Source of the DNA: a virus
Reading direction: 5' to 3' (one strand)
Length of the DNA stretch: 28,365 nt
IMG/VR virus record: IMGVR_UViG_3300017728_000079
Span: 1 to 28,365 of that record
The notes under the pieces were generated by a model, which saw only the letters and a program-made list of their open reading frames with translations, was not told where the DNA came from and searched no databases. A program made the position numbers and the translations under genes. This document shows, one piece after another, positions 1 to 22,413 of this stretch. Positions within the stretch are counted from its first letter, which is position 1. Every line of letters starts with the position of its first letter.

Positions 1-63
1 AAAGGTGTTAATAGTCACACTAAAAAAATTAGAAATATTATCAAGAAATATAAAAACCTTTAG
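1..63 (+). CDS. C-terminal end of an unrecognised protein (partial)
   Basis: The reading frame is open from the first base and ends at TAG 61-63, giving about 20 residues that finish in a very basic tail rich in Lys, Ile and Asn (ends KKYKNL). The start lies outside the window. A promoter and a new gene follow at once, so this is the end of the preceding plus-strand gene. The lysine-rich composition matches neighbouring genes. No family can be assigned from so short a tail, and chance openness cannot be ruled out. Confidence 0.5.
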   Translation, partial: KGVNSHTKKIRNIIKKYKNL

Positions 64-74
64 TTAATACATAA

Positions 75-105
75 GTGCAAATTTGTTTAAATACAATTTA
101 TAATA
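75..105 (+). promoter_or_regulatory. Phage promoter, GTGCAA-N18-TATAATA
   Basis: GTGCAA at 75-80 and TATAATA at 99-105 are separated by 18 bases, about 20 bases before the start at 124. It is one of a repeated set of matching promoters in this window; the four plus-strand copies all have an 18-base spacer. Confidence 0.7.
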
Positions 106-123
106 ATATAAAAGGACATTAAA

Positions 124-594
124 ATGAACCCTCAAACATACAAGAATCAATTTTATATTTTAATTAAATATATCAAAGACAACTACTCAGTTGACGTAAT
201 CCAAAAGCCTTATGAGGAAGATGCATGGTATCCTCAACTCAACATGATTCGAGTTAATCAAAACCTTAAATATCGTGAAAGATTTTTTACTCTTTTGCAT
301 GAAGCCGGACATATGATTATTGATAATCAAGTTAAAAGAAAAGGAGTGATTTGCTTTAACAAAAATATGCCATGGACAGTTCGATCTAAAAAAGGGTTTG
401 TTCATTTAATGAACGAAGAAATCCTAGCTTGGAATTACGGTAAAGAACTTGCTGAGAGATTAAACTTTATATACGGCAAAGAAAATCTTGACGATTATAT
501 GTCTGACTGTATTATGTCTCATGTAAGAAACGGCCTAGACAGTGTATACGGTTCCGAAATCAATGCGAGGATAATATATACTAAACGCGTGTAA
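124..594 (+). CDS. ImmA/IrrE-like zinc metalloprotease
   Basis: A 156-residue protein with a metallopeptidase motif HEAGH at residues 59-63, preceded by the hydrophobic run FFTLL, and a downstream NEEILAW segment (residues 97-103) whose glutamate is a candidate third zinc ligand. This arrangement is that of the M78/ImmA-IrrE family, whose known members cut repressors or regulators in phages, ICEs and Deinococcus. No helix-turn-helix is present, so it is a stand-alone protease domain, and no obvious repressor target is next to it. AAAGGA lies 7 bases before the ATG and a promoter lies just upstream. The substrate is unknown. Family assignment is fairly safe; role is inference. Confidence 0.75.
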   Translation: MNPQTYKNQFYILIKYIKDNYSVDVIQKPYEEDAWYPQLNMIRVNQNLKYRERFFTLLHEAGHMIIDNQVKRKGVICFNKNMPWTVRSKKGFVHLMNEEILAWNYGKELAERLNFIYGKENLDDYMSDCIMSHVRNGLDSVYGSEINARIIYTKRV

Positions 595-638
595 TTATTG
601 CAAATAGTTCATATAATTATCATATAAAGGAGGCTGTT

Positions 639-977
639 ATGGCATTATCTAGAAAACAGCTTAAAGAGCTAAAATCAAAGATGCAAAATACCAACCCTAC
701 TGGCTTGAAAGCAGCTAGACAAGCATCTAAGAAAACAAGACAAGTTTCTCCTCAGAAAGTTCTTAAAGATACAAACTTTACTCAAAGAAAGTCTGTTATT
801 AGATATTCATTTAAACCTAATCATCTAGTTGAGGTTAACTATGGTGCTGAAAAGGTTATTGGTTTGGTCGTATCTGATTTTGAATATTTCTCTAGAAGAG
901 TTGAAAAGAATTGCTTCTTTGTCTTAGTGAAAGGTGCAGTTACACAATTTGATGGCAGATATATTCGTCAGATTTAA
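639..977 (+). CDS. Small basic protein with probable SH3-like C-terminal domain
   Basis: A 112-residue protein that I do not recognise. The first 45 residues are very basic and low in complexity (many Lys, Gln, Ser, Arg). The last 60 form a likely small beta-barrel: HLVEVNYG, IGLVVSDFE, CFFVLVKG and TQFDGRYIRQI alternate in the way of the short 'property of a control element' domains seen repeatedly in this window (6586, 8857, 12325). A basic tail plus SH3-like fold suggests nucleic-acid binding, but this is inference. AAAGGAGG lies 8 bases before the ATG, one of the strongest ribosome sites here. It is probably co-transcribed with the protease at 124. Confidence 0.7.
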   Translation: MALSRKQLKELKSKMQNTNPTGLKAARQASKKTRQVSPQKVLKDTNFTQRKSVIRYSFKPNHLVEVNYGAEKVIGLVVSDFEYFSRRVEKNCFFVLVKGAVTQFDGRYIRQI

Positions 978-985
978 ACTTTTAA

Positions 986-1016
986 GTGTAATTAAGATCA
1001 ACCATTTAATATAATA
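986..1016 (+). promoter_or_regulatory. Phage promoter, GTGTAA-N18-TATAATA
   Basis: GTGTAA 986-991 and TATAATA 1010-1016 with an 18-base spacer, upstream of the RadA-like gene at 1061. A second TATAAT follows at 1020-1025. The block GTGTAATTAAG is nearly repeated in the promoter at 2158. Confidence 0.8.
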
Positions 1017-1060
1017 AAGTATAATCAATCAACAATCACTTTTCAAAGGATTAATTAATA

Positions 1061-1810
1061 ATGAAGCTTAAAGTAAAAAACGACGGTATTGTTTTTGGAA
1101 CTAACATTCTTGACATCAACGTTCCTAAAAAGCTAAGAGAGAGAAATCCGTGTGGCGTTGATTATATTGACGCAGCTTTTGGTGGAGAAGGATTTACTCC
1201 TTCAACCATCTCATTGTTTACTGGCGAGCCTGGCGCCGGAAAAACTACGCTTATGCTTACACTTGCAAATGCTTTAACATCACAAGGATATACATGTTTG
1301 TTTAACACAGCAGAGGAAAGCTTATACCAGGTAAAGCTTACATGTGAAAGACTCGAACTGTCTAGCGGCTTTATCGCAGGCCAAGAATCATACGTCCCAA
1401 GACTTCTTAAACAGTGTGATATGCTTCGAAAGAAAGCAGGAAACAAACCGTTTTTTCTTATTGTTGACTCTTTGCAAACTCTTAATGATGGCAAATACGG
1501 CGAAGAAAATACAAACAGCCAGTCTGCTGTAAGGTCTCTTCAAATGCTTACCGATTATGCTAAAGAGCATTACATTAATGTTATTTGTATTGGGCAAGTC
1601 AATAAGAGTGGTAACATGGCTGGCTCACAAAAGTTAAAGCATATGGTTGATGCAATGTTACATCTATCGATAGAAAAGAAAGATGAGGACTTCAAAGGCT
1701 TGCGTGTTCTAGAAACTATTAAAAATCGCTTTGGTGGCGCTGGTTGGACTTTCTTCTTAGATCTCAAGAAGGAAGGTTTTAATGAGGTAGCACGAGTGGG
1801 GTCTAAATAA
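1061..1810 (+). CDS. radA: RadA-like RecA-fold ATPase
   Basis: A 249-residue RecA-fold ATPase. Walker A is GEPGAGKTT (residues 55-63), Walker B is FFLIVDS (131-137), and the residues FNTAEESLYQVKLTCERL match the RadA segment that follows Walker A. The RadA signature KNRFG is present at 221-225. Bacterial RadA is about 450 residues with an N-terminal C4 zinc finger and a C-terminal Lon-like domain; both are missing here, leaving the ATPase core. RadA family proteins drive branch migration in recombination. In this phage it may replace UvsX or a DnaB-type helicase, but the KNRFG motif favours RadA. Own promoter at 986; AAAGGA lies 11 bases before the ATG. Followed after 3 bases by a membrane protein gene. 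Confidence 0.82.
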   Translation: MKLKVKNDGIVFGTNILDINVPKKLRERNPCGVDYIDAAFGGEGFTPSTISLFTGEPGAGKTTLMLTLANALTSQGYTCLFNTAEESLYQVKLTCERLELSSGFIAGQESYVPRLLKQCDMLRKKAGNKPFFLIVDSLQTLNDGKYGEENTNSQSAVRSLQMLTDYAKEHYINVICIGQVNKSGNMAGSQKLKHMVDAMLHLSIEKKDEDFKGLRVLETIKNRFGGAGWTFFLDLKKEGFNEVARVGSK

Positions 1811-1813
1811 TAT

Positions 1814-2149
1814 ATGACATATGCTTTAGCAGCTTACGTTTTTGCTGCAACACTAACTTTTTTGCAACAAAACTTACAGTTTATCGATGACTATTACAAA
1901 AACAAACAGGACTGGATCATCATACTGCTTAGCCTTCCTATTGCATATGGTTATCTTTATGCTTGGACTTATTTTGTTAACAATTTCAATGGTTCAGTTT
2001 GGTCTGCAAGGTTTATGTTTTTTGGACTATCCTACCTTGTCTACCCAATTTTAACTTATATGTGCCTAGGCGAAACACCTTTTACATTTAAAACAGCACT
2101 TTGTACTGCGCTTAGTGTTTTGATCTTAGTTATTCAATACAAATTATAA
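1814..2149 (+). CDS. Four-helix integral membrane protein, SMR/DMT-like
   Basis: A 111-residue protein with four predicted hydrophobic helices (about residues 1-18, 34-54, 65-82 and 92-110). The last helix begins CLGETPFTFKTALC, which resembles the last helix of small DMT/SMR transporters, where an 'LGE' motif precedes it. Size and topology also fit a holin, so this alternative should be kept. The gene starts 3 bases after the RadA-like gene stops and probably shares its transcript; GAGTGGGG before the stop is the only ribosome-site candidate. Function unknown. Confidence 0.65.
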   Translation: MTYALAAYVFAATLTFLQQNLQFIDDYYKNKQDWIIILLSLPIAYGYLYAWTYFVNNFNGSVWSARFMFFGLSYLVYPILTYMCLGETPFTFKTALCTALSVLILVIQYKL

Positions 2150-2157
2150 ACACTAAA

Positions 2158-2188
2158 GTGTAATTAAGTTCAACTACAAATTATAATA
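2158..2188 (+). promoter_or_regulatory. Phage promoter, GTGTAA-N18-TATAATA
   Basis: GTGTAA 2158-2163 and TATAATA 2182-2188, 18-base spacer, upstream of the MoxR-type ATPase. It is nearly identical to the promoter at 986, including GTGTAATTAAG and the second TATAATC box. Confidence 0.8.
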
Positions 2189-2233
2189 AAGTATAATCAA
2201 TAAAAAACAACTTCATTTTAAAAGGAATTTAAA

Positions 2234-3316
2234 TTGAATATTAATAATTTTCTTAAAGTAGCTCCTAATCTTCCTCCACATATCTCAATCCTTATGCGAG
2301 GTGGAACTGGTATTGGCAAGTCAGCGCTAGCAAATCATATTGCTGAAGATGTTTCATTGCCTCTTATTGATGTTCGAGCATCCATTATGTCTGAGGGTGA
2401 TGTTCAAGGTTATCCTGATATTGAAGGTATGAAGTCAAAAGGTGTTATGACGTTTTGTATGCCTTCATGGTTCGTTAGAGCTTGCAAAGAACCTGTTGTT
2501 TTGTTTTTAGATGAATTGAATCGAGGCTTGCCTGCTGTACAACAATCATTTTTCCAAATTGTATTGGATCGCTGTCTTGGTAATGATGAAGAAGGGAATG
2601 CTTATAACATTCATCCAGAAACCAGAATCATTGCAGCAGTTAATCATGGTAATGAATATGATGTTAATGAAATGGACCCAGCTCTCTTAAGACGATTTTG
2701 GACTGTTGATATTGAACCTTCAAAAAATGATTGGATGACATGGGCTAAGTCTAAAAACGTCGATCCAATGATCCTAGAATTTCTCAAGACAAGAAAATCA
2801 CATCTTTTTGTTGATCTTAGCAAAGTAAAACCAGGACAGGTATTTCCAACCCCAGCTTCATGGGCAAGATTTGATGAAGTCTTAAAGCATACTGGGACTA
2901 CTCTCATGGAAGACAGAAACAATTTTGATATTTATAACACAGCAATTGGTTTTATTGGTAACGAGGCATCAATTGAGTTTACCGACTTTGTCAAGAAATA
3001 CGAAGTTGTAGTAACACCTGAAGAGCTACTTCGATCATTTGTCAAGTGTAAAGATAAGATTGAAGCTATGTCTAACGACAGGATTAATTCTCTCATTGAA
3101 AGATTAGGTGAACATGGCGCCACAAACGATTGGACAGTCTCACAAGCTAAGAATGCAGCAAAACTAGGTAAATCTATTTCTGAAGAAATGATGATTCACT
3201 TCTGGTCTTGTATTACAAAAGGCAAGAACATTAAGACAATTCAAAACTTTCACAAAGAAGTTGGTCAATATGTAGTTGAGATTGTAAATAACAATAGAGA
3301 CATACTAGGCAAATAA
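2234..3316 (+). CDS. MoxR-type AAA+ ATPase
   Basis: A 360-residue AAA+ ATPase. Walker A GGTGIGKSAL is at about residues 23-32, Walker B VVLFLDELNR at about 89-98, sensor 1 AAVN near 135, and an arginine-finger region ALLRRFW near 150-156. The order and spacing match MoxR/RavA-type chaperones, which normally work with a VWA protein encoded next door, as is the case here at 3406. The start is TTG at 2234: AAAGGA lies 7 bases upstream and the next ATG would remove the strand before Walker A. Probable role: remodelling a protein or metal-containing target with its VWA partner; substrate unknown. It has its own promoter. Confidence 0.85.
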   Translation: MNINNFLKVAPNLPPHISILMRGGTGIGKSALANHIAEDVSLPLIDVRASIMSEGDVQGYPDIEGMKSKGVMTFCMPSWFVRACKEPVVLFLDELNRGLPAVQQSFFQIVLDRCLGNDEEGNAYNIHPETRIIAAVNHGNEYDVNEMDPALLRRFWTVDIEPSKNDWMTWAKSKNVDPMILEFLKTRKSHLFVDLSKVKPGQVFPTPASWARFDEVLKHTGTTLMEDRNNFDIYNTAIGFIGNEASIEFTDFVKKYEVVVTPEELLRSFVKCKDKIEAMSNDRINSLIERLGEHGATNDWTVSQAKNAAKLGKSISEEMMIHFWSCITKGKNIKTIQNFHKEVGQYVVEIVNNNRDILGK

Positions 3317-3336
3317 AACACCTAAATAATACTTAT

Positions 3337-3367
3337 GTGTATTTAAGACTATCTTTGTATTATAATA
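3337..3367 (+). promoter_or_regulatory. Phage promoter, GTGTAT-N18-TATAATA
   Basis: GTGTAT 3337-3342 and TATAATA 3361-3367 with an 18-base spacer, upstream of the VWA gene. It gives the MoxR partner an extra start of transcription. Confidence 0.7.
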
Positions 3368-3405
3368 AACCATAAGGCGATTAAACATCACAAAGGACAT
3401 TGTTT

Positions 3406-4692
3406 ATGGGAAATAAAAAAGAAAACAATAACAGCATACTAAAGAAAAACAAAGTCTCACAAGAAAAGATTGATAACTTTGAACTAACTAGTCACTTAGT
3501 TGACTTTCTCTGGAACGAACCGTTTTACAGCAGAATACTAAGGTCTTTAAATAAGATTGAGTCAATAACAATCCCGACTGCTGGTGTTTCTACGCATGAG
3601 TCTGAAATTACTTTATGGTGGAATAGAGAGTTTCTTGCCGGTCTCCCTAAAAAGCATATCGGCGGTTTACTAAAGCATGAATGCCTTCATCTAGTTTTTG
3701 GTCACACAACAGAAAGAAGACGTGAACCGCACATTATCTGGAACTATGGCACAGACTTGGCAATTAATTCTACAATACCTAGAAACGAATTACCTGAAGG
3801 TGGACTTATGCCAGGCACTGCTTTAAAAATATCACCCGAGCAGAACAAACAAATGTCTGACAAAGAACTGGAGACATTCATGAAGCTTTCTGCCCTTATT
3901 GAAAGTATGCCGACTAACAAGACATCTGAATATTATTTTGAAAAGCTTATGAGCGATAATGATGTTAAGGAGTTTCTCGAAGATCAAGAAAAAATGATAA
4001 GCTTAGGTTTTGATGATCATGAAGGCTGGGACGAAATATCTGAAGCTGAAAGAGAAATGATCTCTGGAAAAATTAAAGAAATAATAAAAGAAGCTGCAGA
4101 AGAAGCTAATAATAGAAACTGGGGATCTGTGTCTTCAGAAATGCGTCAAGAAATTATGAAGATGCTTTCTAACGAAATTAAATGGGAATCATTACTAAAA
4201 AGATTTTGTGGATTTACTCGAAGAGATGATAGAAGATCATCAGTTAGAAAGCTTAATAGAAAATATCCAGGTATTCATGCAGGTTTTAAGAAAGTTTACA
4301 AGCCCATGATTGCTGTTTATATTGACGAAAGTGGATCTGTTTCAAACCAAGAGCTAATGAAGTTCTATTCAGAGTTAGATAATTTATCAAACAGGACAGA
4401 CTTTTATGTATATAAGTTTGATCACACTGTAGATGAAAAATCATCTTTTCTTTGGAAGAAGAACACGAGACCCGACATGCAAAGAACTCTTACAGGCGGA
4501 ACAAGTTTTGAATCGGTTACAAAACATGCAATTAAAAACAGGAAAAAGTTTGACGGTTATATTGTTTTAACTGACGGTGGAGCTCCAAAACCTTCAATAT
4601 CTAGAGGTCTTAAACGATGCTGGGTATTAGCTACTGGCTGTAGTCTAATTTTTGATGCAGACCAAACAGACATCGTAATTAATATTAAATAA
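3406..4692 (+). CDS. VWA-like metallopeptidase-domain protein (MoxR partner)
   Basis: A 428-residue protein of the DUF2201 type. The N-terminal region carries LLKHECLHLVFGH, an HExxH zinc motif, near residues 93-105, with NYGTDLAIN shortly after. The C-terminal third is a VWA domain with a MIDAS motif: VYIDESGSVS near residue 305, TGGTSFES near 365 and LTDGGAP near 390. Together these bind zinc and a divalent cation. The VWA protein normally forms a complex with the MoxR ATPase encoded directly upstream. The start is ATG 3406, 8 bases after AAAGGA; an in-frame TTG at 3400 is too close to the ribosome site. The residues needed for metal binding appear intact. The target protein is unknown. Confidence 0.82.
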   Translation: MGNKKENNNSILKKNKVSQEKIDNFELTSHLVDFLWNEPFYSRILRSLNKIESITIPTAGVSTHESEITLWWNREFLAGLPKKHIGGLLKHECLHLVFGHTTERRREPHIIWNYGTDLAINSTIPRNELPEGGLMPGTALKISPEQNKQMSDKELETFMKLSALIESMPTNKTSEYYFEKLMSDNDVKEFLEDQEKMISLGFDDHEGWDEISEAEREMISGKIKEIIKEAAEEANNRNWGSVSSEMRQEIMKMLSNEIKWESLLKRFCGFTRRDDRRSSVRKLNRKYPGIHAGFKKVYKPMIAVYIDESGSVSNQELMKFYSELDNLSNRTDFYVYKFDHTVDEKSSFLWKKNTRPDMQRTLTGGTSFESVTKHAIKNRKKFDGYIVLTDGGAPKPSISRGLKRCWVLATGCSLIFDADQTDIVINIK

Positions 4693-4711
4693 ATTTATAA
4701 ACAGGAAAATT

Positions 4712-4876
4712 ATGTTATATTGTATAAATACAGAAACATTTAAAATTACTAAAGAAAAAAGTGTTTTTAAACTTTATCATAAAGCTGAAAACAGATGGTC
4801 CAGTGGTTGGACATTTGTAGGTAAGTACAATACCCAAGATAGGGCACAAACCGCAGCTCGGCTTTATACGAACTAA
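4712..4876 (+). CDS. Small unrecognised protein (54 aa)
   Basis: A 54-residue ORF fitting exactly between the VWA gene and the gene at 4888. It starts MLYCINTETF and ends with RWSSGWTFVGKYN and TQDRAQTAARLYTN, which look like a beta strand pair and a helix rather than random sequence. ACAGGAAA lies 7 bases before the ATG. I do not recognise the family. The reading frame, spacing and ribosome site support a real gene. Confidence 0.6.
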   Translation: MLYCINTETFKITKEKSVFKLYHKAENRWSSGWTFVGKYNTQDRAQTAARLYTN

Positions 4877-4887
4877 TAGGTAAGACA

Positions 4888-5121
4888 ATGAGAAAAAAGA
4901 ATAGATTTAAGATTACTATTGACAAGAATGGTTTAGGTGAATACGAGACAAGTATCGTTGCATATGCACTTAAGTCTTCATCACCACAAGATGCATTAAG
5001 AAGAGTTGAAGTAGTCTATGATAGCTGTCGCAAGGAAAACAAACGTATTCCTTATAAATCAAGGTTGTTTTTAGAAGCACTCGCAATATCAGCTGATGCT
5101 GATTTGTTTTACATAGAATAG
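4888..5121 (+). CDS. Small unrecognised protein (77 aa)
   Basis: A 77-residue basic protein starting MRKKNRFKITIDKNG. A strand-like N-terminus is followed by two helices (about 20-48 and 58-72). TAGGTAAGACA before the ATG is a moderate ribosome site. It ends with TAG one base before the next gene starts, so it is translationally close to the membrane protein at 5123. No recognisable family. The amber stop shows that TAG is a normal stop codon in this genome. Confidence 0.65.
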   Translation: MRKKNRFKITIDKNGLGEYETSIVAYALKSSSPQDALRRVEVVYDSCRKENKRIPYKSRLFLEALAISADADLFYIE

Positions 5122-5122
5122 C

Positions 5123-5323
5123 ATGCTTTATGCAGGTATAATTTTAATTCTGATCTTGAATGCTTTTTTGTATTACGATACTACACAGCGCAACAAAGAT
5201 CTTGTTAAGGACAAGAATCTTGCGGTTAACATAACAATTTTTATGTTTTCTATTATTGAGATTCTTGTTTTTTTATCTTTTTATGTCCTAGCAACTAAAG
5301 TTATAGGAGCTTTTTATGATTAA
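5123..5323 (+). CDS. Small two-helix membrane protein
   Basis: A 66-residue protein with hydrophobic helices at about residues 2-17 and 36-58, separated by a charged loop (TQRNKDLVKDKN). Both ends fit a helical hairpin in the inner membrane. It overlaps the ligase gene by 8 bases, and starts one base after the preceding stop, so the three are probably translated in coupling. Function unknown; a holin or accessory membrane role is possible but not supported by any specific motif. Confidence 0.65.
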   Translation: MLYAGIILILILNAFLYYDTTQRNKDLVKDKNLAVNITIFMFSIIEILVFLSFYVLATKVIGAFYD

Positions 5324-6608
5324 TGAAGTTAACTCTTTCCTGGAAGAGATGAATAAGTCTACTTCATCTAACGATAAAGTTAAAACTATTTCAACAGCAA
5401 GTAAAAACGTAAGAAAAGTTCTGTATTACACTTACAACAATTTTCTTCAGTATTATGTTACAGCAAAGCTTTTAGAAAAAAGGTCTGACATAACCCAGGA
5501 TTATACCAAATTTGACTCCATATTTCAGCTGCTTGAGTCTTTAAACCAGCGACTAATTACAGGACATAGAGCAATAAAAGAAATTAACGGGTATGTTTAT
5601 TGTAATCCTGAGATTAAGGACTTACTCTATCTAATTTTAGATAGAAACCTAAAGATTAGAGCCTCAGTTAAAATTATCAATAAAGCTTTGCCAGGCCTTA
5701 TTCCTACTTTTAATGTTGCATTAGCAAATAAGTATGATGAAAAAACAAAGAAGAAAGTTGATTTTGAAAAAGATGTTTGGTATGTATCAAGAAAACTCGA
5801 TGGTGTTCGCTGCCTTATTATTGTGGACGACAAAGGAAAAGCAAAATCATTCGCCAGATCAGGAAAACAATTTCATACATTATCCTTGGTCGAAAAAGAA
5901 CTCGAAGAATTAGGTGTTAAAAACGTTGTCTATGATGGAGAAATGTGTATTGTAGATGAAGAAGGTAATGAAGACTTTCAAAGTATTATGAAAGAAATCG
6001 GCAGAAAAGATCATGTAATACAAAATGGTTTATTTCAGATTTTTGACTTTATTCCTTATAGAATGTTTTCGAAAGGTTACGGCGAAACAGGTCTTTTTTC
6101 GCAGAGAATAAATGCACTACAACATATAGTGCTGGGAAAACAAAACAATTTAATTAACTTTCTTGAACAATCACCTATATCTTCTTTTAAAGAGTTAGAT
6201 GATCTAACAATAACAGCCTCTAAAAGAGGATGGGAAGGTTTAATGATAAGAAAGAACGTTCCTTATCAAGGAAAAAGGTCTAATGATATCTTGAAGGTAA
6301 AAACTTTTTACGATTCTGAGTATAAGGTGATAGAAACTTTTTTTGGCCCTCTTAGATATATCAAAGAAGGTGTAGAAATAGAAGAAGAAATGTTAAGCGG
6401 AGTAGCTATCGAGCACAAAGGTAACACAGTTAGAGTAGGCAGCGGATTTACTATAGATCAGCGCAAGAATTTATTTATAAACCCTCATGAAATATTAGGA
6501 AAAACAATTACAGTCCAATACTTTGAAGAATCTAAAAACCAATCAGGAGAATATTCGTTAAGATTTCCAGTAATAAAGGTTATTCATGGTAATGAAAGAA
6601 AATTTTAA
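5316..6608 (+). CDS. ATP-dependent DNA ligase
   Basis: A 430-residue ligase of the nucleotidyltransferase superfamily. Motif I is KLDGVR (residues 160-165) with Lys160 as the likely AMP-accepting residue; RSGKQF follows at 181. Motif III is VYDGEM (205-210), IIIa FDFIPY (243-248), motif IV EGLMIRK (307-313) and motif V LKVKTF (326-331). A C-terminal OB-fold domain begins after residue 335. It joins nicks in duplex DNA. The N-terminal 150 residues are a helical extension longer than in T7 ligase (359 residues) and comparable to T4 ligase (487). TAGGAG stands 6 bases before the ATG. It may act with the polymerase X-like protein at 19690, but that is inference. Confidence 0.9.
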   Translation: MINEVNSFLEEMNKSTSSNDKVKTISTASKNVRKVLYYTYNNFLQYYVTAKLLEKRSDITQDYTKFDSIFQLLESLNQRLITGHRAIKEINGYVYCNPEIKDLLYLILDRNLKIRASVKIINKALPGLIPTFNVALANKYDEKTKKKVDFEKDVWYVSRKLDGVRCLIIVDDKGKAKSFARSGKQFHTLSLVEKELEELGVKNVVYDGEMCIVDEEGNEDFQSIMKEIGRKDHVIQNGLFQIFDFIPYRMFSKGYGETGLFSQRINALQHIVLGKQNNLINFLEQSPISSFKELDDLTITASKRGWEGLMIRKNVPYQGKRSNDILKVKTFYDSEYKVIETFFGPLRYIKEGVEIEEEMLSGVAIEHKGNTVRVGSGFTIDQRKNLFINPHEILGKTITVQYFEESKNQSGEYSLRFPVIKVIHGNERKF

Positions 6609-6798
6609 AATAAATGAAAGTTTAGCTGGCAAGCTGTGCAATTTTAGAGGACATATAGTCTTAGTAGTTAAAAAGCTTAATATGATATTTAACATACATG
6701 ATAATGGTCTAGAAATGCCGCAAAGATACGAAGTTATGTTTAACGATGGCTCTATTGATGTTGTTTCTATTAATTCTTTAAAGATAATAAAAAAATAA
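6586..6798 (+). CDS. Small SH3-like phage protein (70 aa)
   Basis: A 70-residue protein overlapping the end of the ligase by 23 bases. LAGKLCNFRGHIVLVVKKL, then RYEVMFNDGSIDVVSINSLKII, gives a five-strand pattern common in tiny phage proteins with an SH3-like barrel. The gene at 8857 has the same layout. AAAGG lies 6 bases before ATG 6586; a second ATG at 6592 is less well placed. No specific function is known for this family. Confidence 0.65.
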   Translation: MVMKENFKINESLAGKLCNFRGHIVLVVKKLNMIFNIHDNGLEMPQRYEVMFNDGSIDVVSINSLKIIKK

Positions 6799-6846
6799 GA
6801 TATTTAAATGCATATATACTACATACATTTAAAGCCTGGAGTTAGT

Positions 6847-7203
6847 ATGAAAATTACTGAAAGAAAATTAAGAAGTATTATTAGAAGTGTTATCGCAGAA
6901 AACGTAGACAATATCGACATAACAGCAGATCCCGGATTGCCAGAATTTCAAGATACACATGACCCAAGTTATAAAGATTTTGATCCTGCAAGCTCTGCAG
7001 AAGAACATCCATTTCTTGACATTTTTTCACAAATGTGTTCATCTTGGATGAACTCTGACGCGATGATAAGAAAACAAATTGAGAATGCTGCACAATCTCT
7101 ATTAGACGAGTCTGAAAAGGATGTTGCAACCTTTAGAAGACGTCTTGAAGATACATGTGCTCCAGAGTCATTAGACGCTATCTTACCTAGAGACTTTTAT
7201 TGA
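6847..7203 (+). CDS. Small acidic protein with probable capsid-targeting leader
   Basis: A 118-residue protein if started at ATG 6847, where GGAG lies 5 bases upstream; the ATG at 6808 has no ribosome site. The leader, residues 1-18, is MKITERKLRSIIRSVIAE: basic, amphipathic and ending in I-A-E. The rest is acidic and includes an Asp/Pro-rich segment and a helical C-terminus with two cysteines. T4 internal head proteins start with a similar leader that ends in IAE or LxE and is cut by the prohead protease. The product at 20227 has a comparable leader. Head packaging is inference. Confidence 0.7.
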   Translation: MKITERKLRSIIRSVIAENVDNIDITADPGLPEFQDTHDPSYKDFDPASSAEEHPFLDIFSQMCSSWMNSDAMIRKQIENAAQSLLDESEKDVATFRRRLEDTCAPESLDAILPRDFY

Positions 7204-7376: not shown

Positions 7377-8207
7377 ATGAAGTATTTGATAATGTTGTTT
7401 TTAACATTTTTCACGTTTAGCTGTTCTGATCAATTGTCGTCTTATCAAGGGTATGAAATAAGTTATAGAGACAAGTCATATTCTAACACTAAACATGTGG
7501 GTGCATCCTGTGACGACCAGTGTATTTATTCAAGTTACGCTGTAACTTATAACATACAAGATAAACAATACGACTGTGTTGAAGGTCCTTGCGTTTGTGT
7601 AAAAGAAGGAGACGCATATACATTGTGTGATGTTAATGCATCACCTCAAAATTTATGGGAGCAACAACAGACGCAGCAACAAAGTGTTTTAACACAAATA
7701 TCCAGTATTCCTTATTACAATCAATATGACAATATAAACTATCCTTACTTAACATGTCAAAATACATCTATTGCGATGGTTTTAAGCCACTTCCAATACA
7801 GAATTTACCCTGATGAAATATTTTCTAGATGGGGCAAAGACACTGCACAGTCGCCGTCTGGTCTGAACTACGTATATAACAGTTATTCTGCAAATAGTAA
7901 AATCAATACATACACTAATGCAACGCCGGAAGATCTCACGTCAGCATTGTCGCAAGGCTACATTGCCATCGTTCACGGATATTTCACATCTTACGGTCAC
8001 GTCTTAGTTGTTAGAGGTTACGACAGCCAGCATTATTATGTTAATGATCCTGCAGGGAAATGGGACGGCTGTTTTAAATGTGGATACACATCAGGCAATT
8101 ATAACGGTGTTACAAAGTATTTAAAAAAAGCTTTTGAAAATGCAGTCTTTACTTCAGACGGAAGTTCTTATTTGCCCGGGTGGATTCACCTAGTTAAAGG
8201 AAATTAA
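7377..8207 (+). CDS. Secreted C39-like cysteine protease, lipoprotein
   Basis: A 276-residue protein. A signal peptide ends in a lipobox TFSC, giving Cys16 as the lipidated residue. Residues 40-85 hold several cysteines (CDDQC, CVEGPCVC) and probably form disulfides. The C-terminal half matches a C39-like papain-fold peptidase: IPYYNQ then TCQNTS, with the probable catalytic Cys, and later SYGHVLVVRGYD and YYVNDPAG, which supply the likely His and Asp. It would be anchored in the envelope facing the periplasm or surface. Target unknown: it could cut peptidoglycan crosslinks, a receptor or a bacteriocin-type leader. GGAG stands 8 bases before the ATG. Directly followed by the TSP3 gene, probably the same transcript. 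Very unusual phage cargo. Confidence 0.75.
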   Translation: MKYLIMLFLTFFTFSCSDQLSSYQGYEISYRDKSYSNTKHVGASCDDQCIYSSYAVTYNIQDKQYDCVEGPCVCVKEGDAYTLCDVNASPQNLWEQQQTQQQSVLTQISSIPYYNQYDNINYPYLTCQNTSIAMVLSHFQYRIYPDEIFSRWGKDTAQSPSGLNYVYNSYSANSKINTYTNATPEDLTSALSQGYIAIVHGYFTSYGHVLVVRGYDSQHYYVNDPAGKWDGCFKCGYTSGNYNGVTKYLKKAFENAVFTSDGSSYLPGWIHLVKGN

Positions 8208-8208
8208 A

Positions 8209-8826
8209 ATGAGGTTTTATTTTGGACTCTGCTTGACTATTTTTATTTTTATGAACAATATATCATGGGGGCAAAGTTATGAATGCGATAATAATTTTGA
8301 ACAATGTGGAACACCTGACCAGAGTGGTGGTGGAGGAAAAGGTTCAGTATTAATAGCAAATACAGACTTAGGTGATTCATATCAGAACGCTGATGATTAT
8401 GATGATGATGGTGTTGAAGATCCTTATGATAATTGCATGCGTTATCCTAACCCAGATCAATTAGACATGGATGGTGATAACACTGGTGATATGTGTGATA
8501 ATTGCCTTGAGTATTATAATCCAATGCAAGAAGATATGGACGGCGATGATTGGGGAGACGGCTGTGATGATGACAGTGATGGCGACGGCATTTTAAATGT
8601 TGAAGATGGCTGTCCTACACAATGGGGCAGCACGTGTGCTGAACTTGATTTAGTAATTAGTGATAGCAATAACATTATAAATCATGACAACAAAAACAAA
8701 ATAACAGTTAAAAGACAAGAAAGGCTTGGTATTAACGAAAGTCATGAAAGCTGTAATCAAAGTCGTGATAACAATCTCATGTGGGTTCTTCTTATTATCA
8801 TGATATCTTTTCTTTTTGTCAAGTAG
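8209..8826 (+). CDS. Secreted thrombospondin type 3 repeat protein with C-terminal anchor
   Basis: A 205-residue protein with an N-terminal signal peptide (about residues 1-21, ending near SWGQ), a Gly-rich linker, then TSP3-type calcium-binding repeats (residues 61-140): DYDDDGVEDPYDNC, NPDQLDMDGDNTGDMCDNC, MDGDDWGDGCDDD and SDGDGILNVEDGCP. A polar region follows and the end is one hydrophobic helix (190-204, LMWVLLIIMISFLFV) with a terminal Lys. Such repeats bind Ca2+ and stiffen surface proteins; they are common in predatory and gliding Gram-negative bacteria but rare in phages. It starts 1 base after the protease gene with AAAGGA upstream. Likely of host origin; role in lysis, attachment or superinfection exclusion cannot be decided. 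Confidence 0.78.
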   Translation: MRFYFGLCLTIFIFMNNISWGQSYECDNNFEQCGTPDQSGGGGKGSVLIANTDLGDSYQNADDYDDDGVEDPYDNCMRYPNPDQLDMDGDNTGDMCDNCLEYYNPMQEDMDGDDWGDGCDDDSDGDGILNVEDGCPTQWGSTCAELDLVISDSNNIINHDNKNKITVKRQERLGINESHESCNQSRDNNLMWVLLIIMISFLFVK

Positions 8827-18120: not shown

Positions 18121-18939
18121 TTAGAACAGTCTGGAATAGTCCTCAACCAAGTCAGACATGCTAATTGAAGGATTTCCAACAGTGTCATATTTATGCGTGT
18201 CATTGTTTTCTTTACTATACATTTTTTCAAACAGCTTTCTAAAATTATCAAATACTTGCGAATCGCATTTTATAAAGTAGTGTGAAGACGGTGATATATT
18301 TTTATCAAATTTAAAAATCTTACCAGCGTTAACGCCGACTCTTCTTATAGCAAATTTTGGATTTTCTTCTTTTGAAACCCAAGACCAATCTTTATGGTTT
18401 TTGCTTCTTAATATAGCTTTTCGCTTGAAGCTTTTCCATTCCCAGACTTGAAAGGTGCACGGCACAGAATAATCAGTGTTGTCAACTAGCTTGAACGATT
18501 TTTTTTCTAAAATTTCTTCATATACTAAATGGAAGTGTTTATTTAACCTATTAATTACTGACTCTTTGCGAAACGTTCTAGGAACAATAAAAGCTATATA
18601 TTTGGCAAATGAAGCGCTATGATTGAAAAATTTAATTGCTAAAGATGAGTTTTTACCAAAAGGAGGATTTCCTACTACGCAAATGCTGCTGTATGATTTT
18701 ATTAAGTTACTGCTATCGAAACTAAAAAAGTCTTGCTTTTTTATTTCTTTATGTTTAGGGTCAATATCTAGACCAATTCTTTTCCCTTTAGGCAAAAAGT
18801 TATAAAAAGAACCAGACCCAGCTGATGGTTCTATATACATGTCTATGTTTTTGTATTTGTTTTGTAACTTTTTAATTAAGGTATGCGCAACTGCATCTTT
18901 TGTATAAAATTGATCGTTCGTTACTTCGCTCTTAATCAT
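18121..18939 (-). CDS. N6-adenine DNA methyltransferase
   Basis: A 272-residue class I methyltransferase. DQFYTKDAVAHTLIKKL precedes motif I (IEPSAGSGSF, about residues 36-45) and LDIDPKH forms motif II. The catalytic NPPFGK (about 91-96) marks N6-adenine methylation. A target-recognition region follows, with conserved pairs (WSWVSKEENPKFAIRRVG). It overlaps the endonuclease-like gene by 4 bases (ATGA), and AAAGGAAATACA is its ribosome site. It would protect sites cut by its partner. Sequence specificity cannot be read from the sequence. A type II arrangement is inferred. Confidence 0.85.
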   Translation of the reverse strand: MIKSEVTNDQFYTKDAVAHTLIKKLQNKYKNIDMYIEPSAGSGSFYNFLPKGKRIGLDIDPKHKEIKKQDFFSFDSSNLIKSYSSICVVGNPPFGKNSSLAIKFFNHSASFAKYIAFIVPRTFRKESVINRLNKHFHLVYEEILEKKSFKLVDNTDYSVPCTFQVWEWKSFKRKAILRSKNHKDWSWVSKEENPKFAIRRVGVNAGKIFKFDKNISPSSHYFIKCDSQVFDNFRKLFEKMYSKENNDTHKYDTVGNPSISMSDLVEDYSRLF

Positions 18940-19598
18940 TGTATTTCCTTTAAAATATGAAAAAACTTTGATGGGTACATCATTATATTGTTTTCATGCC
19001 CAGATTTTATTATCTGAAACGTTCTTGTTTCTTTGCTTGTAGTTGACATATTAGGCGGCTCATTGCAAACTATAGTATGGAATTTCCAGCCATTAGCATG
19101 ACATATATCATATAAGCTGTTTTTTTCAATAGAGTTATATTTTTCGCCCCTGTTTAGCTGTTGACCTCCACCCCAAAGACTTACTTGAATATAGCAGACT
19201 GCATTATAGTCTTTGCTTTTAATTAAGAGATCAATCTTGTCTATTGGAATATCTTTTTTCAAGAAGTCAGGGAATAAACAGCTTTTCTTATCTATCTGAG
19301 TATATATTTCAACATCTTTTCCCGCTGTTATTTTTAAAGAATTGCTAAGTATAAATTCTTCAAAGAGGTCACCACGTTTTTTTGCTATAGCTTGCGACTT
19401 TATTAAGCTTATATTTAGTTTTTCTAAATCTAGCAAGATATCCGCGCCATACTTTTCAGTTAATAAAGATATGTTTTTCTGCCTTAATAAAAGCTTTTTA
19501 ATTTCTTCAAGTTTTAAATCACTAAATCCTTTATAATCAAATGATTTTTTCCACTGTTCTATTAGATCATACTTTATGTTGTTTAGTTTTTTTTTCAT
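18936..19598 (-). CDS. Probable type II restriction endonuclease
   Basis: A 220-residue protein encoded directly before the methyltransferase. The core KIDLLIKSKDYNAVCYIQVSLW (residues 121-142, Asp123 and Gln138) is followed by GGGQQLNRGEKY (143-154). This is a PD-(D/E)xK-like layout in which the usual E-x-K is replaced by Q-x-S, while GGQQ-NRG-KY looks like a conserved finishing motif. N-terminal 100 residues are helical. A helix-strand end (GWKFHTIVCNEPP) follows. Its own promoter lies at 19648. Family call rests on position beside the methyltransferase and the D...Q pattern. Confidence 0.6.
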   Translation of the reverse strand: MKKKLNNIKYDLIEQWKKSFDYKGFSDLKLEEIKKLLLRQKNISLLTEKYGADILLDLEKLNISLIKSQAIAKKRGDLFEEFILSNSLKITAGKDVEIYTQIDKKSCLFPDFLKKDIPIDKIDLLIKSKDYNAVCYIQVSLWGGGQQLNRGEKYNSIEKNSLYDICHANGWKFHTIVCNEPPNMSTTSKETRTFQIIKSGHENNIMMYPSKFFHILKEIQ

Positions 19599-19647
19599 TT
19601 TTTAAATTTTTCTTTTAATTTAAATTTAATATTGTTTTTGTTTTTTA

Positions 19648-19677
19648 TATTATAATATAAATATTTTTATTTTACAC
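19648..19677 (-). promoter_or_regulatory. Phage promoter, GTGTAA-N17-TATAATA
   Basis: Minus strand: GTGTAA 19677-19672, TATAATA 19654-19648, 17-base spacer, directing transcription of the restriction operon starting at 19598. It is in the divergent gap with the gene at 19690; no GTGTAA promoter is seen on the plus side. Confidence 0.75.
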
Positions 19678-19689
19678 ACAAGGAAAAAA

Positions 19690-20226
19690 ATGAGGATCAA
19701 ACAAAACAGAATATCTTGGGAAAGTGCAAACAGTTTATATCAATTAGAATCAAAAGATATTGTTTTTGTTCTCGAGCAGAATGGAGTTCAAGTTAAAAAC
19801 ATTTCACCAGCTGGATCTTTAAGAAGAGGTAGAAAAACAATAGGTGACTTAGATATTGTTGTTGAAGTAGACAACCCCCAGCTCGCTGGCAAAACATTAA
19901 AAGACATAATGAATTACCAGTTTTTCACTAAAGGATCTTTTTATAAAGGCCGAATACTTGATATGGGTATTGATTTATTTATTGCTGGTCATCATAATTA
20001 TTATTCTATGCTTTTCTTTTTAACTGGTTGTGAAGACTGGAACTTAAGAATTATGAAGCACTTAAGAAATAACACAGACTTAAGATATACACCTTTTAGA
20101 TTTATTAACAAAATCAACAAAGAAGTCTATGACTTTAAGTCAGAAGAAGACATATTTAGACTTATTAATCATAATTATATATTACCAAAAGATAGAATAC
20201 CACAAAATATAAATTTCGGAGAATAA
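19690..20226 (+). CDS. Minimal family X DNA polymerase-like protein
   Basis: A 178-residue protein matching the palm and thumb of family X polymerases. SPAGSLRRGRKTIGDLDIVVEV has the GS residues 42-43 and catalytic Asp53 and Asp55; MGIDLFI gives the third acidic residue, Asp95. YYSMLFFLTGCEDWNLRIMKHL and the closing EEDIFRLINHNYILPKDRI match the last part of PolX. The usual helix-hairpin-helix finger domain and PHP domain are absent, so it is a core of half the size of Pol beta (335 residues). It could fill short gaps, with the ligase at 5316 sealing them. AAGGA lies 6 bases before the ATG. It is directly followed by the 20227 gene. Confidence 0.8.
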   Translation: MRIKQNRISWESANSLYQLESKDIVFVLEQNGVQVKNISPAGSLRRGRKTIGDLDIVVEVDNPQLAGKTLKDIMNYQFFTKGSFYKGRILDMGIDLFIAGHHNYYSMLFFLTGCEDWNLRIMKHLRNNTDLRYTPFRFINKINKEVYDFKSEEDIFRLINHNYILPKDRIPQNINFGE

Positions 20227-22413
20227 ATGAGAAAGTTATTAAGAGAGCATTATCAAGAGTTGCTTAAAGAAGAAATTGACTACAGCTCAAAGATAGCAAC
20301 TGTATATCACCTAACAGGATTTAAAACAGCGCAGTATGATCCTGTCTATAAGGAAAAGCTGACCAAAACAAATAAAGGCTTAAGCGATGAAGTTAAATCA
20401 AAAAGATCAGACAAGAAAAAAACAAGAGCGCAAAGTATTTTATCTAATATAGAATATAAAGCTGCTGCAAAAGACCTTAAGAAGTTTAAGACGCCTCAAG
20501 GTCAAGCATATTATATAGCAAACAATATTAGAAAAGCGCCTTATGACTTAGGAAGTTATTACATACCTGGCGGCGGCAAAATGTACGGGAAAGGTCTTTA
20601 CACTTGTTATAAACTAAATCCAGCAATTGCAAGAACATACGGCAGTGTTATTTTAAGATTTGACGTTGATATATCTTCAATGCTAATTTTCAATGCAGGA
20701 ATAGCAAAAGGTATTTATGGAGATAACTTTAAATTAGAAGACCAATTTCTAGAAATCTGCAAGAAAAAGAACGTGGACATTCGAGGTTTTTACAATCAGA
20801 AAGTTTCCCTAGACATATCAGATGATTCTAATGATGCTATAGGTCAATTCCTCGAATTCCTATCAAAAATGTCAAATAAACCTGAGTTCTTAGATAGTAC
20901 TTTTGATACTGATCTTAGAACTGCGCCAATGGCACTCCAGTCTATATTAGATTATAGCAGGCAATTTAAAAATGGTAAAGCTTCTATTCTAAGAGATGTT
21001 ATAGACGGTGTAATCTTTCACGGGCAAGGTGACGGACCTGTTTGTGTTATTTATCACCCGGGAAGTTTAAAGAATTACCAACTTACAGGTGCTGGATATT
21101 TTGATGACGAAGGAAACCCAGTAATAGAATCAGAAATTGAAAGGTTAGTAGGTAGGTCTGGAACAAGTCTTAAAGATACATTTAGTTTCACGCAAGAATT
21201 AGATGAGGAGGCAAGGGAAATTGATTTGCAACGCGGATTAAGTTTTAAATCAACTCTTGCAAACTTTTCAAAAGAAATTAATGACGAAGATGACTTCTTT
21301 TTTGAAAGATTTCCTGATGAACTTAACAGCATGTTAGATCCTTTAGTCAGAGATTTTGATTATGTCTGTGAAGATCTTATTACTTCAAGAGTAGAAAGTT
21401 CGCAGCCTGGTTTTGACAATTATTGTAGTGATATATCTAAAGCATATAAGTACGTACAATTTATCTGTTCTATCTTAGCTGAACCTTTCCTGGCTTTTGT
21501 TGATACTTTTGGACCAGGACTTGACATTGTTAGTAAAGATGAATTTGAAAAGTATTGTTATATATTAAAACAGTATGCTTTCTCAAAGAACACACCAAGT
21601 TTAGCTGACTTTGAACTTAAAGGTTTAAAATGTGTAGCTCAAAATGAAGAAGAATTTGCAAGACTTGTTGAAAAAGAGCTTGACCCTTTAATAGGTAAGT
21701 TTTATGTAATGAATGACGAAGGCCTTGCTGATGAATTTGTATATACAATTTCTGATGACGTCATTTGTGGCGGAGGCACTTGTGTAATCAATAATTCTAT
21801 TTCTAAATTTGAAATAGGTGATTTTAGTTTAAATACAAAAAAAGATGCACAAGCTTTAAAAGACTCACTTGCAAGTAATTCGTCAACAATAAGTGATGTA
21901 GAGCAAAATTTGATTAAGCTATTTAGCGACGAAAGACTTCGAACGCAAGAAGGTATTGGGTTTCTAGAACAATTATTTAAATACAGCTCAGTTATCAACT
22001 TTGGAAAAGAAGGATTAATCAATGGCACTCTTAATTTTGACGAGATTGCTAATAATTTAGGTTATTATTCAGACAGTTGCGGTGGCGGCGGCGACTTATT
22101 CTACACTCTTTCAGAGCAAATAGGAGTAATGGATTTTGGCGCATCAGCTTATATTATAGATAGAACTAAGTTTGATCCTGAGTTTATACTACAAAGAATG
22201 TATGACGTAAAAGATGTAAATGGCGTTTTACGCGATGCTGCTGGTTTATCTAAACAAATGTTTAAAGAAGGTATAAAGGCATTTAATAGTGCTAATGCTC
22301 TTTCAAGAGATTTTGTTAAGGGAAAAGTTGTGGAAGATAAAGTAGGTAATCTTAGCTGGGTCGTTGAAGATACATTTAACTTGCCTGCTAGAAAAGATGA
22401 AATACTTATTTAA
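20227..22413 (+). CDS. Large ADP-ribosyltransferase-like protein with head-targeting leader
   Basis: A 728-residue protein. The leader MRKLLREHYQELLKEEI (1-17) is basic, amphipathic and includes L-K-E, resembling the T4 capsid-targeting sequence. The region 25-285 has VYHLTG (His28), YGKGLY (120-125), ARTYGSVILRFDVD (135-148) and DGVIFHGQGDGPVCVIYHP (about 260-278). This HxT...GxGLY...Y pattern is that of PARP/ART-type transferases, which modify proteins with NAD+. A linker and a C-terminal part with CGGGGDLFYTL (about 618-628) follow. T4 Alt (682 residues) is an injected virion ART of similar size. Starts right after the polymerase's stop (TAA then ATG), with GGAG upstream. ART activity and packaging are inference. 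Confidence 0.6.
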   Translation: MRKLLREHYQELLKEEIDYSSKIATVYHLTGFKTAQYDPVYKEKLTKTNKGLSDEVKSKRSDKKKTRAQSILSNIEYKAAAKDLKKFKTPQGQAYYIANNIRKAPYDLGSYYIPGGGKMYGKGLYTCYKLNPAIARTYGSVILRFDVDISSMLIFNAGIAKGIYGDNFKLEDQFLEICKKKNVDIRGFYNQKVSLDISDDSNDAIGQFLEFLSKMSNKPEFLDSTFDTDLRTAPMALQSILDYSRQFKNGKASILRDVIDGVIFHGQGDGPVCVIYHPGSLKNYQLTGAGYFDDEGNPVIESEIERLVGRSGTSLKDTFSFTQELDEEAREIDLQRGLSFKSTLANFSKEINDEDDFFFERFPDELNSMLDPLVRDFDYVCEDLITSRVESSQPGFDNYCSDISKAYKYVQFICSILAEPFLAFVDTFGPGLDIVSKDEFEKYCYILKQYAFSKNTPSLADFELKGLKCVAQNEEEFARLVEKELDPLIGKFYVMNDEGLADEFVYTISDDVICGGGTCVINNSISKFEIGDFSLNTKKDAQALKDSLASNSSTISDVEQNLIKLFSDERLRTQEGIGFLEQLFKYSSVINFGKEGLINGTLNFDEIANNLGYYSDSCGGGGDLFYTLSEQIGVMDFGASAYIIDRTKFDPEFILQRMYDVKDVNGVLRDAAGLSKQMFKEGIKAFNSANALSRDFVKGKVVEDKVGNLSWVVEDTFNLPARKDEILI

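Follow-up and report, generated by a model that had tools for sequence, protein, structure and literature searches.

In phage T4, a handful of genes, including those for IPI, IPII, IPIII and Alt, encode proteins that begin with a capsid-targeting sequence, a short N-terminal leader with an (L/I)xE-like end that is common to unrelated proteins. These propeptides target the cargo to the core and gp21 removes them; in IPIII, the 10 N-terminal residues are enough for targeting, the internal proteins are basic, and gp21 makes a further cut at the C-terminus of Alt (PMC9026906). Alt is a packaged, injected mono-ADP-ribosyltransferase with a very short propeptide, and phage ADP-ribosyltransferases have been proposed to be often packaged (PMC9503650). 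When the T4 genes are translated, the starts read MAKINELLRES (gp24), MKTYQEFIAEA (IPII and IPIII), MLKEQLIAEA (gp22) and MELITELF (Alt), while gp23 has LTE at residues 63–65. In the phiKZ-like giant phages SPN3US and phiKZ, N-terminal propeptides of head and ejection proteins are likewise cut after Glu by the prohead protease (PMC5694885, PMC9026906), at A-x-E or S/A-x-E sites.

The window studied here, a virus record of 28,365 bases, represents part of the genome of a marine T4-superfamily phage. Its close sister G004 (107,300 bases) overlaps it at 124–7203. In two larger contigs, G014 (239,550 bases) and G040 (211,364 bases), we matched 44 and 39 of the 62 window gene calls, respectively, nearly all in colinear order. 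The initial annotation had noted that two proteins of the window, of 118 and 728 residues, share a short basic, amphipathic leader with an (I/L)xE. Both N-termini are as it quoted them, MKITERKLRSIIRSVIAE at 6847 and MRKLLREHYQELLKEEI at 20227, and the features are listed in Table 1. For the smaller protein we preferred the start at 6847 over the in-frame ATG at 6808 because a TGGAG precedes it and because the shorter form aligns in the homologues.

Table 1. Features of the two leader genes and their surroundings in the window.
Feature	Position	Strand	Evidence
RBS-like TGGAG, 5' of the 118-aa gene	6837..6841	+	sequence
Type A leader MKITERKLRSIIRSVIAE, cleavage predicted after E18 (codon 6898-6900)	6847..6900	+	41.3 bits, out-of-sample profile
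Small leader-bearing protein, 118 aa, predicted head cargo	6847..7203	+	homologues in L004, L005, L006, L007
Nucleotidyltransferase-like gene, 178 aa, without leader	19690..20226	+	abuts the 728-aa gene; weak hits (E 3e-4) to palm and thumb of DNA polymerase beta
Type B leader MRKLLREHYQELLKEE, cleavage predicted after E7 (20245-20247) and/or E15 (20269-20271)	20227..20274	+	16.1 bits, out-of-sample profile
728-aa ADP-ribosyltransferase-like protein	20227..22413	+	family of 26 loci, invariant columns, model, best BFVD match
Motifs of the 728-aa protein: YHLT 20305-20316; GLYTCY 20593-20610; DGPVC 21031-21045		+	

The shared (I/L)xE is weak evidence when taken alone, because 611 of 2,202 N-termini of related contigs (28%) have an [LI]xE within residues 5–24. 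We built leader profiles from seeds in G012, G014 and G027, excluding the window and its closest sister. The wider leader proved significant in both window proteins, although as two related types rather than as the single leader first described. The 118-aa protein starts with the type A consensus, M(K/R)ITExxLRxxIRxxIxE, and its leader ends in IAE-18, an (L/I)xE. The 728-aa protein starts with the type B consensus, KLLREYIxELLxE, and holds two (L/I)xE, LRE-7 and LKE-15. Basic and amphipathic is a better description of the first leader, with a net charge of +3 and a hydrophobic moment at the 99th percentile, than of the second, whose net charge over 18 residues is −1 and whose moment lies at the 83rd percentile. 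Internal control windows, scored in five rounds, gave no type B score of 14 bits or more; for type A, about 1 window in 1,712 scored that high.

An alignment of N-termini had been proposed as a check, and across the relatives it showed the leader again on many proteins that are not otherwise related. After addition of a third profile, picked by eye (type C, LLxExWRxFLxE), leaders were found at 120 of 2,202 N-termini versus 21 of 15,240 internal windows, a rate about 40 times higher. The 120 are not a count of independent events, because about 40 of them are seeds and some contigs are near-duplicates. An [LI]xE lies in residues 5–24 of 115 of the 120, versus 611 of the 2,202 overall, the seeds partly selecting for it. 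Up to 28 leader genes occur in one genome, and in G012 the gene starts between 146121 and 152467 read MRITEKKLRKLIRETIES, MRITEKKLRNIIRYVLAE, MRITERKLRNIIKSIICE, MYMTECRLRQIIRSVLIE, MLLREYVSRYIKEAIS, MRISERRLRCMIREIIIE, MNRKETKLLVEGWRNLLKE and MRITESKLRSLIRSVIKE. By blastp, the bodies behind the leaders are mostly unrelated: the type A leader DNA pattern alone was found in 25 viral contigs, on about 14 different bodies.

We also compared N-termini pairwise, using only pairs without body similarity and scoring them against mid-protein, C-terminal and shuffled windows. High-scoring N-terminal pairs lay far above all three controls in G012, G014 and G027; the excess was weaker in G004, and there was little or none in G021, G023, G024 and the isolate Mel-JY01. 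The largest N-terminal cluster, found in G027, comprises 37 proteins, although a few of these clearly lack a leader; in other contigs some clusters, lipoprotein signals for example, have nothing to do with the leader. Judged by these profiles and pairwise scores, the leader of the window's two proteins is real and no chance resemblance.

The leader appears to belong largely to viruses. In 257 Gb of prokaryote contigs the type A DNA pattern had only 2 matches, both on MAG contigs, and these are probably phage because further leader genes and a Peptidase_S77 (S77) lie in the same bin. A short-peptide tblastn search of INPHARED returned only the 484-kb uncultured phage LR756508.1 (E 1–3). Mel-JY01 has no leader above threshold, though it has the same head operon and some of its starts look alike by eye. 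Flavobacterium phage immuto also has this operon, with a run of leader-like starts, seen by eye only, just upstream of terminase. Full-text searches of open papers, made by words rather than by motif sequence, found no description of the leader.

How is the leader linked to the head? The initial annotation had likened it to the leaders cut by gp21, and a gp21-like protease, Peptidase_S77, is indeed encoded in the T4-type head operon of the large relatives, including the colinear G014 and G040; the window and G004 stop short of this operon. S77 was found in 7 of the 28 records of the first set (including G012, G014 and G027), many of the others being fragments. It was seen in only 5 of 17 leader contigs because many of these are fragments, and the HK97-type protease S78 was found in none of 17 contigs. 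In Mel-JY01 both S77 (E 6e-30) and Gp23 (E 1e-79) are recognizable. Around S77 the relatives encode, in this order, terminase, portal, a ~275-aa protein, S77, small proteins, scaffold and capsid protein, where roles other than S77 and Gp23 are named from gene order and likeness to annotated phages. Near residue 60 the capsid proteins share a conserved ENQAxxxLxE, with LISE in Mel-JY01, immediately ahead of the conserved Gp23 domain; the capsid propeptide of the relatives also ends at a conserved (L/I)xE.

Beyond the checks that had been proposed, we found the leader on small proteins encoded beside S77. The 142-aa product adjoining S77 in G012 begins MAKVSRSMLKGIVKECLVELLAEG, and from K3 onward it aligns without gaps with MKITERKLRSIIRSVIAE from K2: K, I/V, S/T, three variable positions, L, K/R, one variable, I, I/V, K/R, two variable, I/L, one variable, E. 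Homologues occupy the same position in G014, G021, G023, G024, G027 and G040. A small protein near S77 also begins MKLT..LL..II.EE in G039 and G048, and in G043 leaders stand on four genes between portal and S77 and on one beyond S77. The leader is thus tied to the head, because small proteins beside the protease carry type A residue for residue.

Taken together, these comparisons suggest that the leaders act as capsid-targeting sequences and are cut off by the prohead protease, and we consider head targeting with leader removal quite probable. A tag on many unrelated proteins, including small proteins of the capsid operon, therefore probably sends protein cargo into the head for delivery to the host; that the window's two proteins are themselves injected is fairly likely. 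The leader would dock each protein to the core or scaffold during prohead assembly, and S77 would then cut after (L/I)xE, at E18 in the 118-aa protein and at E7 and/or E15 in the 728-aa protein. Once mature, the proteins would remain in the head alongside the DNA and be ejected into the host. As in T4, a short N-terminal leader with an (L/I)xE-like end is common to unrelated proteins, an S77 protease and a Gp23-type capsid protein are present in the same lineage, and LLRE-S of T4 gp24 is close to LLRE-H here. Unlike in T4, the leaders read MKIT..LR..IR..I.E and LLREYI.ELL.E, their targeting and cutting are predicted from sequence, and they number up to 28 per genome rather than a handful. They share a Glu-ending site with the phiKZ-like propeptides, whereas the propeptides of SPN3US are mostly longer than 100 residues with Ala or Ser at P3 and the leader here has 7–18 residues with Leu or Ile. 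Several findings count against head cargo: the window contains no head operon, S77 was seen in only 5 of 17 leader contigs, the S77-bearing G021, G023 and Mel-JY01 show few leaders or none, and some type A members, such as MKITKRQLRRIIREEAEA, have no clear (L/I)xE at residues 16–18.

Such members would also fit a leader that is never cut and serves, like other cargo-loading peptides, as a docking helix for the scaffold, the portal or another virion part, in which case the proteins would be packaged but maybe not injected. Conservation of the whole helix-like stretch, beyond its last three residues, points the same way. However, a protease of the right family is encoded in the same genomes, and the site-like ending is kept where leaders otherwise differ. 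The N-terminal 320 residues of the 728-aa protein have 26 related loci in two subfamilies; L5 and E7 are invariant across 23 members, and L5-x-E7 is retained between the subfamilies although their leaders (MRKLLREH, MKNSIRWLLTES and MKYSLKES) have diverged. We thus regard an uncut helix as unlikely.

Less likely still is that the leader targets its proteins elsewhere, for instance to a membrane or to a compartment of replication or transcription, and stands in the head operon incidentally. MKITERKLRSIIRSVIAE is basic and amphipathic, as membrane-binding helices are, and many leader genes are distant from the head operon, but the leader's occurrence on head-operon small proteins in several contigs and its likeness to T4 head propeptides argue otherwise.

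Leader genes are often clustered, and upstream DNA is common to two pairs of them (146516 and 147318 in G012, and a pair in G050), as would be expected if the shared start were a duplicated or recombined promoter, ribosome-binding site and first codons, and the peptide had no role. In 37 type A genes, however, codons differ at 50% of identical residues, nearly the 56% expected if they were independent, and the upstream DNA has a mean identity of 33%. We therefore rejected DNA copying as the origin of the shared starts, and a purely DNA-level feature is very improbable; with bodies that are for the most part unrelated and with diverged codons, what is kept is the peptide. That the window's two leaders are alike by chance, as the frequency of (I/L)xE alone might allow, is practically negligible given the profile and pairwise controls.

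Under the favored reading, a capsid-targeting leader removed in the prohead, the larger cargo would be comparable to T4 Alt. The 728-aa protein is probably ADP-ribosyltransferase-like, to judge from its conserved motifs and its predicted structure. Invariant columns of its family, besides the leader positions, are YHLT27-30, GLYTC123-127, NP131-132, YG138-139 and DIS148-150, and we read the invariant H28 and Y125 as matching the H and Y of ADP-ribosyltransferase motifs; near DGPVC, at the third catalytic position, no Glu is evident, unlike in the usual H-Y-E or R-S-E triad. The AlphaFold model has a mean pLDDT of 73, with residues 1–14 and 107–122 poorly modelled. The top BFVD match of its N-terminal domain is A0A8S5RYQ5, a PolyVal ADP-ribosyltransferase (E 1.2e-3, probability 0.99, with low TM-scores of 0.27 and 0.39), and the second match, not significant, has the same name. 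The PF18760 (ART-PolyVal) HMM, in contrast, gave no hit on the protein and none in 17 records. A fold search of the PDB with the model gave nothing significant, which does not exclude an ADP-ribosyltransferase fold; sequence searches gave no match in Pfam, PHROGs or INPHARED phages for the protein and none of significance in the PDB for the family. The comparison with Alt thus rests on ADP-ribosyltransferase-like motifs and the best, albeit weak, structural match: both proteins are large with a very short propeptide (predicted here), but the 728-aa protein has H-Y type motifs and is without a sequence match. It would act in the host as Alt does.

The 728-aa gene and its nucleotidyltransferase-like neighbor are also adjacent in L001. 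Together with a methyltransferase-like gene (with NPPF) and its neighbor they occupy 18121–22413, which looks like a variable island because it has no counterpart in the colinear G014 and G040. The 118-aa gene lies near a DNA ligase gene, as alt does in T4. Its homologues, found by position or pattern, keep the leader while overall identity falls to 27–61% (89% for the G004 copy); Pfam and PHROG searches gave no match for the protein, and INPHARED phages gave chance-level matches only. Elsewhere, leaders precede HAD_SAK RNA-repair phosphatases, an HD_4 domain, DUF192 and nicotinamide-nucleotide adenylyltransferase-like domains, and most leader proteins match no known family. Two leader proteins of G004 are lysine-rich, comparable to the basic internal proteins of T4.

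We lean, with some reserve, toward a broader proposal: that this marine T4-superfamily lineage made the capsid-targeting sequence a general head-import code, with as many as dozens of unrelated effector genes in a genome, among them an undescribed ADP-ribosyltransferase-like family. Because the leaders, of three related types, would be interchangeable on unrelated effector genes, the injected proteome would be readable from sequence. If so, one N-terminal motif would list the proteins that reach the host from these uncultured phages within the first minutes of an infection, yield host-takeover and counter-defence candidates straight from metagenomes, and offer a tag that can be tested for the loading of foreign proteins into non-T4 heads.

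Several further observations were made. Three Mel-JY01 proteins (at 60276, 62056 and 79976; L024), without a Pfam or PHROG match, begin with a leader-like stretch followed by WHLT, WHVT or YHYT and are possibly more ADP-ribosyltransferase-like cargo. The long subfamily of the 728-aa family (L013, L178, L192 and L195) shares a conserved LDLSHRKIFGNSLKEVY at the C-termini, where an LxE lies close to the end; T4 Alt, too, is cleaved C-terminally by gp21. On the minus strand of G004, 81229–94371 (L013) is a dense block of leader genes encoding two lysine-rich small proteins, a 591-aa protein and two ADP-ribosyltransferase-like paralogues of 920–945 aa. Tail-sheath-like proteins of about 890–1,480 aa, several in a row, are encoded in G004 (1–6626), G010 and G012 (42209–53711), more than one per genome, the name being similarity-based in one case only. 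At 7377–8826 of the window, a lipoprotein-like C39-type peptidase gene precedes that of a thrombospondin type 3 repeat protein; both products have signal-like starts, and the pair is also present in G014 and G040.
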